Shown in pieces: positions 4,321-42,700 of a stretch of 64,000 bases of DNA. The stretch lies in the NCBI GenBank assembly GCA_032358255.1, contig JAULBX010013096.1:1-64000 (forward strand), read 5' to 3'. The stretch comes from Heterotrichella gracilis (Eukaryota; Sar; Xanthophyceae; Tribonematales; Xanthonemataceae). The notes under the pieces were generated by a model. The model saw nothing but the letters and a program-made list of their open reading frames with translations. It did not search any database and was not told the origin of the DNA. Within the stretch, counting starts at the first letter, position 1; every line of letters begins with the position of its first letter. The position numbers and the translations under genes are program-made.

Positions 4321-7300
4321 ATGAGGCTAGCGCATAGGGTGCTGCGTGCGATGCACCGCGCATGCATGCCACACCAATGCCGACCGCAGCAACCAGCAAT
4401 GTACTGCTGCCAGAACCACCTTGGCCAGCATGCGCAACATGCCTTCACTCCACCTGCTTCACCGCATAGCAGTCCCCTCCTGCGGGTGGTGGCCAGGCGG
4501 GTGGTGAGGCCCTTCACCAGCAGCAGCAGCACATGGGTGCGGGGGGGCAAGCTGGTGGCGCAGGCGGAGGCAGGCAAGGTGGACATATCACCAAACATGA
4601 TCAGGCGAAAGGTACGCTGCCTGTGTGAGCCGATTGACCTATTTGCCATATGCATGCATATGCAGGCATACACTCGCACACCACACAGGTTGTTGGCGTG
4701 GACTAGGGTGTCGCAATTCACTCCCGCCTGCTATGCATGCTGTGCTGACCCCACTCCCCCATTGATTTCCTGTTAGGTCGAAGAGCTTCAGGAGCGGGTG
4801 AACGAGGCGGCAAAGGTGGGGCTGGGAACCACTATTTGGGGGGCTTGCGTCCTACGGGACGGAATATGGTGCACTGCTTGCAGCCCCCATATGTGCATCA
4901 TTTTTGGCAGCAATGCCTCAACGAACAGACTGGCCGAATCTTAGCAATACCCATTGCCCCCACTGGCTGTGTTGCCCACTAAGATCTGCCATGCCTCCAG
5001 GTGTCTGACCTGCCCGCCCTGCAGCGCCAGCTGGCATCCCTGGAGCACGATACTTCATCCAGCAGCCTGTGGGACGACCCGCAGGCGGCGCAGGCGCTCA
5101 TGCAGGTGGGGTAAGGGTTTAATGTTTAAGGTTTAGGGTTGAGGGACGACTCACAGGCAATGCAGACGTCATGCAGGTGGGGGCACACCGTGCGCCAAAT
5201 AATATATGGGTGCATTGCACGTACCCCTAACAGGTAAACCGGTCAGGCACACGTGCAGTATGTTTGCCTCATTAGGGTGGCCATGGCTGGAGAGGGGTCC
5301 ATGCATCGCTGTGGTAGCTCCTTTCAGGTGCTGGATGGTGGTGCGCTGCTGCGGCTGTCTCATGTGCCCGCAAGGCCAAACAGCATGGCCCAGGGCCCCA
5401 GCCGTGCATGGGATTGCAATGCCAGGGCAACGGCACATGCACCACAGTATGTGGCCACATGACATCCGTGGCTGCCTGGGTAGGGACACCCCATGCTGCA
5501 GCGCATGCACACCCCGTGGAATAATCATGTTTTCTCCCTACATTGGAAATATTTCCCTCCACTTCCGACCACTAACCTCAACGAGCACCAGGTTGTGCTG
5601 CGCCAGTGCGCCTGCCGCCTGGCATGGAGTGATGCATTGCCCAATCTGTGGAAGGCATGTGGCTGTGTGCTCCATTAATTGCGTATTACAACTTCCCATT
5701 TGTAGGAGGCCACGCGAGTGCGCGGGGAGGTGGCTTCATTGGAGTCGCTGCAGCGGCTGGTGGAGGATGGGCACATGGCGGTGGAACTGCTGGACATGGA
5801 GGTGGGGTGTGGTGGAGAGAGGGGGGGCAGGGGCCCAGCATGTTACCGTGGGGTGTGCACATGATGGTGGGAATGATGCGCATCAGCGCAGGTCACAGGC
5901 ATGCGATGGGTGTGCAACCTGCCTGGTGTATAGCTGGTGCCAGGCAGATATTGCATATCACACCAAATTATGGCAGGGCAGGACAACAGCGGTGCTCATG
6001 CATAAGCCAGGTGCTGCACGTGCCACAACTTCGTGGGTTGTTTTAGGGTTTTAAGGTGTAGGGTGTAGGGTGTAGGGTGCTCTGTTGGCTATGCATTCAA
6101 AAGGGGGTTGTTGAATGGCAGGAGGAGGAGGGGGAGAGCTCTGGCACCCTGCGTGAGGCGCTGGCCATACTCGACAGCCTGCAGGCAGGGCTGGACCAAT
6201 GGGACATGCGCAAGCTGCTCAGTGGGCCATACGACGCCAAGGTAGGGGCGGGGCAGGAAGGCAAACGGGCGCGGTGGGCCATCCTTGGGCTGGGCAGGTG
6301 CCTGCGGGTGACTATGTGGCCTTTGCACGGGCTGCATCTGTGGATCATGCAATGCGCTGGCTGGTGGGAGCATGCAGATACAGTTCCTGCTACACACACC
6401 GGATTGCCCACGTGCTTGTGCTGCTCGGCATGCTCCATGCCACGCGTTGGGCTGCCACCCATCTAATCCATCCCAGATGGGTAGATACAAATAAAAAATA
6501 AAATAGTACAGAGGGTTCATTTAATAAAATTGTATTTATTTTGTAGGATTTTCTAAATATTGAACGCCACCCCTGGCTGCAGGGCGCCGTGGTGACTGTG
6601 TTTGCGGGTGCAGGCGGCACCGACGCACAGGACTGGGCCGAGATGCTTGAGCGCATGTACCTGAGGTGGTGCGCCAGGCAGGGCTACCGCACGCGGGTGG
6701 TGGACAGGCAACAAGGTGCGGGGGCAGGGGGGTGGCCTACTGCATGTTGACCCATTGCACTGCTTGAGTGGTGGCTATGGTTATTTCCATATGACAGTGT
6801 GGCCTTTCCACTGCACATGCATGCATAGTTGCGCTTCCCAGCGCGCGTCCATGCGTTCCATGCATGCCGTCATGCAGCCACCTGTTTTGTAATGAGGTTG
6901 TGTTGCTTGCCAGGGGAGGAAGCCGGGATCAAGTCTGTAGAGATTGAGGTGGAGGGGGAGTACGCGTATGGCTACCTGGCGGGGGAGAAGGGCACACACC
7001 GCCTGGTGCGCCAGTCCCCATTTAGCGCCAAGGCGGCACGCGAGACCAGCTTTGCAGCGGTGGAGGTCATGCCGGTGCTAGGTGGGACCCGAAATCTTCT
7101 CTTATTACTCATCCCTGGGAAACGCGTGCACCCTGCATGGTCTGGTCGCACACTCTGGTGCAGTGCGGGTGTGCGTTTGGAGCCATCGCCATTCCTCGCT
7201 GACAGGCCATGCACAGATGTGCCGAGCCAGTATAGTGCCGAAGAGGCATCGGAGCTTTGACTTTGATTTGCCGCAGCCCAGTATCGTGAGGCCTTTTTTC

Positions 7301-39764: not shown

Positions 39765-42700
39765 ATGAGTCGGCGCGTACAGCTGGCGTACCATGTGACG
39801 CACAAGGGCCCTTGTGATCTACCAGGGGTGCCGGAACATGACCTATCAGATGACCCCCCCTCGCCATCTGAGGCTGACGCCACGCAAAGCGGAATGGCAC
39901 CCGATGAGTCAGTGCATGCCAACAGCACCCGTAGCAAGGCCAGCAATGACGGCAGTGGCCACAGGCGGAACAGCAATGATGATAGCAGCGCCCACCGGCG
40001 GAACAGCACTGATGACCTCACCACCGCCAGGCCCCATGCGTCATCAGGCGCCCTTGAGCGTGTGCCCAGTCGGGGCCTGTGGGACGCACCCCCCGGCATC
40101 GCCCCCATAGCCCTGCCATTGACCCGCCAGGTGTCGCGATCAGCAAGCGGCAGCAGCAGCAGCAGCAGCCCGGGGGTGGTCAACTGGCTGCGACGTAAGG
40201 AAACCCTGCACCCTAAACCCTACATTCTCACACAGGTTGCAGCTCGCAGGCTGTCACGTGGCTCAGACATAAGGAATTATAGACGGACACCTACCGCAAT
40301 ACATGCACATTGCATCATCCCGCATGCTGTGCCATATTGCAGTTGAAGGCATGCACATTGTGCACAATCCCAATGAGTGCCTCTGTCCATCAGCCTGCAC
40401 TAGGGTCACACACCCGCACTGTACCCACTCAAAACCCTAATGTAGGGCAATGCACCCTGCCAACCCCTACACTAGGGTCCCACCCCTGACGCCCATTCCC
40501 CCTCCCCCCTTGCCCCCAGACGCGGTGAGCCAGGACCGCACCCGCTACCAGGAGGATGGCTTTGACCTCGACCTCACGTACATCACACCCAGGATCATTG
40601 CGCTGGGATGCCCGGCAACAGGCGTGCAAGGTGGGGGGGGGAGATAGGGGGTTGCCAAACAGCGAGGAGGGGTTAGGGTAGGGTGGGGTGCATGCGTGGT
40701 GGGGACCTCTATCTGTCCGGCGTGCATGCTTCCACCAGCATGGCATAGGCAGGCAGTCAGTCCTGCACGATGGACGCACCTTGCACCACGTTGTGATTCA
40801 TCATCCCTGCACACACCCTGCCCCTGCGCGCACCATCAAATAGTGTCTGTATCCTCTTCCCTGTCCTCTTACAAGGCTTTAACCTCCTTTTTTCACTCCC
40901 CGCCAGGCCTGTACCGCAACCCCGCCTCTGCTGTGGCCCACTTCCTGCAGCGGCGCCACCCAGGGGGGGGTGCGCGCGTGTACGATCTACGGGTGGAGGG
41001 GCCGGGGGTGGGGGGCCACCCGCTGGACGCCAAGGGGGGGAATGTGGCGCACTACGGCTGCAGGGACCACCAGGTGAGGGGTTGGAGAAGGGTATGTGCT
41101 GCGCATTGCGGTGCAATCGTATGGTTTGTGATGCAGGGGAGTGATGATGGGTTTGTGGGCATTGCAAGTGAGCGGCACTTGATACAAGTTGGTGGAGGGC
41201 TGCTCTGTTTGTCAGCATGCGTGTGGACCGTGGATGGTGGGGGACACCGGGTGCATGGTGTGGCCTGGGTCAGGGACACATCATGAGCAGATGTTGCATG
41301 GCTGGGGTCTAGATGGTGGTCATCGATGATAAGCAATCTTGTGAAGCTGGGTAGCAGTGGCGGGAATGTCTCCGTTGGATGCATTGGTACACAATCGAGA
41401 AGGGATCCATAGCAACATGCATAAACCCCTCACCCCAGGCTCCTCCATTGGACCTGCTTTCATCCTTTTGCGCCGACGCGTGCGCCTGGCTGCGCTCCGC
41501 CCCGCACCACGTGGTTGCTGTGCACTGCAAGGCGGGCAAGGGGCGCACAGGGGTGGCGGTGTGCGCGCTGCTCATGTACATGGTGAGGAGGGAGGGGTGG
41601 GCGGTATGGGTTGAGCTCATGCATTGGCGGACGTTTGAAGTGAGGGGTTACGGTTGATGAGGTGTGCGCACTAGAGGCAATTCGCCATGTGTCTGACCAT
41701 GCTATCGGATACATGTCAGCAGCTGTTGACCCTACCTTCATTTTCCCTTGTCCCTGCAGCGTGTTGCCCCGGGCCCGGATGAGGCTCTGGATCTGTACGA
41801 CTCACAGCGCAGCACCACTGGCAAGGGGCTCACGATAGCGTCACAGAGGAGGTAGGGCGGGGTGGGGGGGGTGGGCTGCAAGGATGTCCAGTAGGATGGT
41901 AATGGCAGTAGGATGGCACTGTCATTCCCATTAAAATTTATACTGCATGCACCAGCACAGGGCACTAAGTGGCGTGTGCCCCGGCATGGGCCAATTAGTC
42001 TTGTCACAGTGAGAGTGTGGGGTATCGGCAGCTGTACATGGGTCTCATGCGCTCCACAGCAGCTGTACATGGGTCTCATGCGCTCCACAGCAGCTGCACA
42101 TGGGCAGGAACCAGTTCCACCCGGCTGCATGGCTCACTGGTAGGCTGCAATGCCCGTGCCATGCATATGTTTTATAGCATTACTTCCCCTTGCCCTCCGC
42201 TCAGGTACGTCCACTACTTCTGGAAGCAGCTGCTGCAACAGCAGAAGCAGGCACTTGCGGGTGACCTCCCCACCGACCATGACGCGCCCCCCTCAGCCAC
42301 ACTGCTTGGCTTTACCCTGCGGGGCCTGCCTGGCGCATGGTCCAAGGGGGTGCTGGTACAGGTGCTGGCGAGGGCGCCGGGCCAGGTGGAACCACGCCTC
42401 CTGCTGGAGGTCAAGGGCAAGGGGAGCGTTAAAGGTACCGGGGATGGAATGCATTGCAGTGTAGCATGCACATGCTCTTGACTCAACTTATGGTCATCTG
42501 GCATGGTTCCATCCTGTGTGTATCTGTGAATCTTGAATCTTGTGCGGGTTTTCACCCGTGTTCCTCTGTGCCAGGTGGTAGCACCTCATCTTCTGCAGCA
42601 TGTACCCCCCATGTGACCGTGGATCAGGGCGTTATCAGCCTGGTGTGTGCAGAGGAGGTGCAAGGGGACGTGCTGGTCAAGGTGGGAGGGTGGGGGAGAG

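Follow-up and report, generated by a model that had tools for sequence, protein, structure and literature searches.

Exon-edge echoes are diverged copies of an exon edge, together with its splice junction, that lie within the adjoining intron. They are found in a 64,000-nucleotide stretch of DNA of the alga Heterotrichella gracilis (Xanthophyceae; assembly GCA_032358255.1, contig JAULBX010013096.1, positions 1 to 64,000; referred to as the window), and the pattern is spread over the sampled genome rather than confined to the window. An earlier note on this DNA had described six such copies in adjoining introns, at donor as well as acceptor edges, 70-220 bp from their sources and with a telomere-like spacer at four. 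All six are real (p<=0.0066 each: 0.0033 at five sites and 0.0066 at the PTEN-like site, in comparison with 300 dinucleotide shuffles of the intron, for which 0.0033 is the floor); four are at donor and two at acceptor edges, start-to-start offsets of edge and echo at the window sites are 72-218 bp, and the spacers of RF2, agmatine deiminase, the aminopeptidase exon at 19172 and PTEN are the four that are telomere-like. A second donor edge of RF2 adds a seventh site (Table 1). All seven copies are direct, and the junction lies inside all seven alignments.

The wider sample was drawn from the 68.5 Mb, 903-contig assembly by fetching 60 stretches around (TTTAGGG)3 runs (L009-L068; 20 of them 10 kb long). 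Together with the window, the 20 long stretches make up the 264 kb in which duplications were collected, and on which a small hidden Markov model (HMM) gene finder was self-trained without annotation. It arrived at CAG|GTGRGT as donor and a C-rich TGCAG|G as acceptor signal, and divided the 264 kb into 29% coding sequence and 50% intron, with 638 predicted junctions. Junctions were counted in this set after removal of those <=700 bp from a chosen telomere run (n=561). An echo in the junction's own intron was called at an alignment score of at least 14, with introns of other loci and the inverted own intron as controls.

By this measure, 61 of the 561 junctions have an echo in their own intron; when set against introns of other loci they match in 5 of 1683 cases. 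Inverted own-intron matches number 0/561 at this score (and 6/561 at a score of at least 12), and inverted copies, considered as a possible trace of between-strand template switching, were dropped as a candidate. Local duplications in the 264 kb number 122; after each sequence had been dinucleotide-shuffled once, there were 0. The spread of echo rates between loci exceeds chance (p=0.003); unequal rates fit a gene-specific process, and the rate looks gene- or region-specific. (In four of the stretches, L016, L017, L019 and L022, none of the 8-24 tested junctions has an echo; in L013, nine of 29 do.)

Placement at splice junctions and fate of the copies

Attachment of the copies to splice junctions, far above what random placement gives, is supported by the distribution of duplication clusters. 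The 76 clusters (chosen centres included) comprise 48 that span a junction, 13 pairs of an exon and an intron copy, 6 that are intron-only, 5 exon-only and 4 intergenic. When duplications of the same lengths are placed randomly in genes and the exon-only ones dropped, the simulated share at junctions is 18.6%, rising to 31.3% if the conserved exon copy confers a twofold advantage in decay (that is, in detection). The observed share is 61/67, or 48/54 when spanning clusters alone are counted (p=2e-24 and 2e-18, respectively, against 31.3%). The claim that the copies span junctions beyond what random duplication would produce is thus upheld, and in the sampled stretches the copies are positioned non-randomly relative to exon edges.

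The edge itself is duplicated at 8-9% of junctions, positions +20 to +39 of the intron at 0.3-2%, and deeper positions, where the copies sit, at 4-6%; on the exon side of the junction, duplication coverage drops slowly. The two ends of the copied segment can be compared in 85 echo junctions (45 donor and 40 acceptor, in 61 sequences, 60 of which were picked round telomere runs, the window being the unselected one). The intron part is <=12 bp in 20 of the 20 events with an identity of at least 0.93, in 63/85 events of any age and in 30/44 away from the chosen runs (alignments ending up to 25 bp before the junction were scored as short intron parts). The exon part is the longer of the two in 76/85 events. 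From the shortness of the intron part it follows that one of the two breakpoints is linked to the splice site.

Copies are mostly 20-100 bp long, shorter ones falling under the detection limit. At 36 junctions there are at least two intronic copies; the higher score belongs to the exon-nearest copy at 28 of these and to the farthest at 7, with one tie (p=0.0005), and where both copies are strong the exon-nearest prevails by 18 to 4. The arrays fit growth from the exon edge inward, without proving the order of growth. In one array (L023:1499-1850), a single acceptor edge is repeated about six times, with telomeric tracts between the copies and a period of ~70 bp. Another set of tandem copies of an acceptor region (L025:5184-5436) includes at least 33 bp of intron and has an AT-rich spacer of 27 bp; it looks like a kind of duplication other than the telomeric ones.

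That echoes could lengthen introns had been suggested from the window, and introns with an echo are indeed the longer ones (median 458 bp, n=58, against 302 bp, n=251, introns at chosen runs included). The sequence from an exon edge through to the distal end of its best echo makes up 7% of intron bases (chosen centres excluded). Mismatches between exon and intronic copy fall on third codon positions at 17.1%, versus 8.1 and 5.4% at the others, an excess that roughly corresponds to a constrained exon paired with a neutral copy. There is no sign of a function of the intronic copies. Alternative or recursive splice sites were considered, with GT/AG kept at 142/144 bases, a count that is biased since alignments must end on a match. 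With seeding from the exon only, and among copies aligned to <=6 bp from the junction (35/46 donor, 32/39 acceptor), GT is kept in 30/35 and AG in 26/32; such retention is about what neutral decay would leave, and functional intronic copies are rejected on that ground.

Telomeric filler between the copies

Runs of (TTTAGGG)8 occur at 11 places, each at or <=140 bp from a contig end (they are the first bases in five contigs). This confinement identifies TTTAGGG as the true telomere repeat; a TERT RNA-binding domain is also encoded in the genome. The shorter (TTTAGGG)3 has 834 dispersed matches genome-wide (overlapping matches within one run being counted separately).

Spacers with at least 14 telomere-like bases, the cut adopted for calling a spacer telomere-like, separate edge and echo at 64 of the 85 junctions (38 donor, 26 acceptor). 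Away from the chosen runs, 30/44 spacers are telomere-like, against 8.25 expected from random intron pieces of the same length outside echoes (the top of 40 draws was 15), and exact motif coverage is 11.1% in spacers against 1.9% in other intron sequence (highest draw 3.5%). The spacers of the sampled stretches are thus richer in TTTAGGG than the rest of their introns. With the chosen centres excluded, exact telomeric 7-mers make up 3.0% of bases in introns, 1.25% in intergenic sequence and 0.3% in exons (0.4-0.6% for the reversed-motif control), and they peak close to the splice sites: their coverage is 7-10% in the zone 10-40 bp inside donors and 6-7% in the zone 20-40 bp inside acceptors, with 1.6-3.6% beyond 60 bp. 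For the 41 (TTTAGGG)3 runs in L009-L048, direct repeats that flank the run exceed the 95th percentile of 495 control points in 14 cases and the 99th in 8.

Apart from the telomeric motif, the spacers have little in common: 74 telomere-masked spacers of at least 40 bp yield 3 short cross-locus matches (20-34 bp) among the sampled loci. Two window regions with their spacers have no second match in a genome search that passes over simple repeats, and a genome search for a second or empty copy of five loci (including the window's aminopeptidase region at 24604 and its agmatine deiminase region) found none. The purity of tracts against their depth, tried as an age clock, gave no clear trend; the 7-mer ratio hinted at one, with a high background of near matches.

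Staggered breaks as a proposed explanation, and its rivals

The doubled edges, their position at exon edges, their direct orientation, the telomeric filler and the multi-copy arrays are matters of observation. The explanation preferred here, to which about an even chance is accorded, is repair of staggered breaks at exon edges, mostly with telomeric filler, in repeated rounds that lengthen introns. Exon/intron borders would be hot spots for staggered DNA breaks, one strand being cut near the splice site on its intron side (<=~12 bp away in fresh events) and the other mostly 15-70 bp into the exon. Fill-in of both overhangs would double the segment between the cuts (the exon edge plus its splice dinucleotide), and filler, most often telomeric repeats supplied by telomerase or by capture of telomere fragments, would come to lie between the two copies prior to end joining. 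Of these copies, the outer would remain the working exon edge, while the inner would turn into intron along with the filler and decay neutrally; further rounds at the same edge would shift older copies inward, so that introns would lengthen from their ends. (As to what might break DNA at splice sites, one suggestion is the edges of R-loops formed in introns by transcription.) A staggered break that is filled in yields copies in direct orientation, with one breakpoint fixed at the splice site and the other at a variable place within the exon, and with filler separating the copies. In plants, adjacent nicks are said to yield tandem duplications (work cited in PMC8316200). Mammalian telomeric insertions with target duplications have been explained by staggered breaks in the portions of text available (PMC7215372, PMC2246262).

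A broader proposal, put forward tentatively and with somewhat less than even credence, is that introns of this lineage grow chiefly through a DNA-level process able to find splice sites: their borders would be exposed to breakage as they are transcribed or spliced, the edge would be copied inward with telomeric filler, and introns would accrete at both ends in rounds.

Several observations weigh against the staggered-break explanation or limit what can be drawn from the counts. By the cut adopted, 21/85 spacers have no telomeric sequence. The tract lies nearer the end that telomerase would prime in 62 cases and nearer the other end in 55, with 2 ties (n=119, p=0.58; proximity is a proxy, and rows from multi-copy junctions are non-independent). 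Near donors, neither strand of the repeat is preferred on the sense side (30 T-rich to 36 C-rich tracts); near acceptors the sense side mostly carries CCCTAAA (12 T-rich to 44 C-rich tracts, p=2e-5; window and L009-L068), unlike what mirror-image priming predicts. The acceptor skew possibly reflects selection: TTTAG|GG is acceptor-like, and CCCTAA resembles the consensus of a branch point in its pyrimidine context. Selecting fresh events by their identity mildly favours short intron parts, and by percent identity the precedence of the exon-nearest copy in arrays is not significant (22 vs 14, p=0.24, or 15 vs 7, p=0.13, in the strict count). All splice sites are predictions of the HMM. Finally, the echo rate is 6/149 junctions in the unselected window against 55/412 in the long stretches chosen for telomere runs (centres excluded); the genome-wide rate is uncertain, perhaps 4-13% of predicted junctions. 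The earlier note's interpretation stands in part: the pattern is real, widespread and junction-tied, and one mechanism for all copies is a possibility only, given the non-telomeric spacers, the lack of a primed-end preference and the failure to find a second or empty copy of five loci.

Of the other explanations, the strongest holds that exonic DNA in general, with a margin of ~10 bp, suffers breaks that lead to duplication and filler, that introns are protected, and that exon-internal events are purged so that those overlapping splice sites survive. It is unlikely, but it deserves to be taken seriously: it predicts the same edge profile, as well as the scatter of the other breakpoint through the exon, and the exon-only clusters are few (5/76). 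It needs a separate cause for the protection of introns, and differs from breakage aimed at exon edges only in where the unseen events fall.

Template switching, of the type of synthesis-dependent strand annealing (SDSA) or microhomology-mediated break-induced replication (MMBIR), would let an exon-side 3' end near the splice site gain filler, re-enter the sister or the same template within the exon and recopy the edge. Direct copies, one fixed and one variable breakpoint, and multi-copy arrays are all compatible with such a course of events, but it predicts tracts nearer the extended end and a mirrored orientation at donors and acceptors, neither of which is seen, and it is accordingly held to be distinctly unlikely.

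Random duplications with filler, of which those at edges stay visible on account of the conserved exon copy while others are purged or decay, are a highly unlikely source of the pattern. In its favour, events inside exons would be lethal, a pair of neutral copies would diverge about twice as quickly as a neutral copy paired with a conserved one, and the mismatch peak at third codon positions looks as if both copies drift with the exon under constraint. However, the share of clusters at junctions, in the full as in the strict count, is far above the 31% expected even with the twofold advantage; the intron part is short in every one of the fresh events; and intron-only clusters number 6, though introns occupy about half of the 264 kb. 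Insertion of a transposable element or introner at splice sites, with a long target duplication and the element itself as the spacer, has only a very slight probability: the structure does resemble a target duplication and the spacers have the telomere motif in common, but the masked spacers share next to nothing across loci, the two window regions have no second genome match in the search that passes over simple repeats, and the duplicated length varies widely.

Were staggered-break repair at exon edges the source, telomeric repeats in introns would be repair scars, not signals, and a mutational origin of the targeting would mean that DNA damage is linked to splicing at the level of single junctions. 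If a splice-site-locating process is indeed at work, thousands of junctions would carry its trace and splicing would influence how the very sequences it acts on mutate. Control of intron length in compact algal genomes is an open question, for which echoes offer a concrete route of intron growth; with an echo at ~4-13% of junctions and echo introns ~150 bp longer, that route is testable. For Chlamydomonas, the accessible text of one study has the driver of intron length as likely ancient and the advantage of long introns as unknown (PMC8226300).

Known systems and the genes of the window

The ingredients are known: mammalian telomeric insertions with target duplication, and intron lengthening by staggered breaks in Daphnia. 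The splice-site targeting and the scale appear new within the literature searched. Among the literature matches listed there is no description of telomeric filler combined with exon-edge duplication, in a search that most subscription journals lie outside, and the available portions of two algal genome papers (PMC3446292, PMC12712428) make no mention of such echoes.

Short interstitial telomeric sequences (ITS) of primates, rodents and horse place the species' own telomere repeat inside chromosomes, as is the case here. According to the accessible text of the two reports (PMC2246262, PMC7215372), some ITS are flanked by a direct target duplication, which is ascribed to staggered breaks, and none lie in human exons; plain target duplication is a minority feature (6/130 rodent, 4/25 primate and 3/66 horse loci). 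The share of human ITS in introns fits random insertion, whereas here the motif reaches its highest density 10-40 bp away from splice sites, and what is copied is the exon edge. The traits of ITS type in H. gracilis are a spacer motif that is the genome's own telomere repeat and a target duplication at part of the loci; the position relative to genes, in contrast, is non-random.

In Daphnia pulex, direct intron repeats are read, in the text available, as repeated rounds of breakage that passively lengthen introns (PMC4202315), much like the lengthening envisaged here, and the trait held in common is that direct repeats enclose inserted filler in introns. The repeats shared with exons in D. pulex are 4-12 bp long and tied to new introns; those described here are mostly 20-100 bp, have telomeric filler and lie at exon edges. 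Direct repeats near intron borders, in another survey, are likewise read as traces of break repair at splice sites; these are 4-30 bp long (mean 11.4) and are compared across the two borders of an intron, and the abstract has no telomeric filler (PMC11782384). Intron gain by tandem genomic duplication has in common with the echoes a duplicated exonic stretch with AG|GT, but there, as far as the accessible text goes, the first copy provides the donor and the second the acceptor of the new intron (PMC3443670), whereas here the second copy is inside an intron that ends elsewhere. Such gain was rejected as a candidate for its wrong geometry; one of the 122 duplications comes near the pattern (L015 2440, EI / IEI).

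Introners are copies of one element, and the copied sequence here is, in contrast, the local exon edge, different at every site. The likeness lies in the genome-wide growth of intronic sequence, described in the available text for algae and other eukaryotes (PMC9860276).

In the window, the HMM recovered RF2 fused with agmatine deiminase (one gene boundary being missed), an M1 aminopeptidase fused with a putative glutamate dehydrogenase, as well as an ArsS-like gene and, together with an mTERF gene, PTEN; other genes were also recovered. Pfam bears out the six predicted proteins scanned (one of them shortened), with matches to RF-1, PCRF, PAD_porph (agmatine-deiminase type), Peptidase_M1, DUF3641 together with radical SAM, mTERF and NmrA; the PTEN part has weak matches only, with PTEN_C2 under its cut-off.

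Table 1. Source edges, spacers and intronic echoes at the seven sites of the window (identity over alignment columns)
Feature	Position	Strand	Details
RF2 donor edge, source copy	5068-5111	+	exon 5001-5105, junction after 5105
RF2 spacer, telomere-like, sense-strand TTTAGGG	5112-5139	+	18/28 bases exact
RF2 intronic donor echo	5140-5182	+	82% identity, 44 columns, p=0.0033
RF2 second donor edge (seventh site), source copy	7623-7644	+	exon 7440-7639
RF2 second intronic donor echo	7696-7717	+	86% identity, 22 columns, p=0.0033; spacer G-rich, 0 telomeric bases
Agmatine deiminase intronic acceptor echo	10032-10086	+	91% identity, 55 columns, p=0.0033
Agmatine deiminase spacer	10087-10249	+	CCCTAAA telomere-like part ~10200-10232; 21/163 bases exact
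Agmatine deiminase acceptor edge, source copy	10250-10304	+	exon start 10262
Aminopeptidase intronic donor echo	19076-19123	-	88% identity, 48 columns, p=0.0033
Aminopeptidase spacer, telomere-like, sense-strand TTTAGGG	19124-19162	-	21/39 bases exact
Aminopeptidase donor edge, source copy	19163-19210	-	exon 19172-19313
Aminopeptidase second intronic donor echo	24604-24633	-	97% identity, 30 columns, p=0.0033; spacer AT-rich, 0 telomeric bases
Aminopeptidase second donor edge, source copy	24815-24844	-	exon 24830-25079
ArsS-like acceptor edge, source copy	36336-36377	-	exon 36215-36372
ArsS-like intronic acceptor echo	36468-36509	-	86% identity, 42 columns, p=0.0033; spacer 0 telomeric bases
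PTEN-like exon 1 donor edge, source copy	40165-40202	+	junction after 40194
PTEN-like spacer, telomere-like, sense-strand CCCTAAA	40203-40238	+	13/36 bases exact
PTEN-like intronic donor echo	40239-40276	+	74% identity, 38 columns, p=0.0066; weakest site

Tandem repeats with units of 31, 22 and 24 bp, not matched to exon edges, lie in predicted introns of the window at 42028-42104, 22110-22159 and 51285-51364, respectively. The second aminopeptidase echo (24604, with its source at 24815) sits within a larger AT-rich tandem duplication of ~200 bp that is free of telomeric sequence and occupies 24535-24844, where 24535-24578 and 24731-24774 also correspond.

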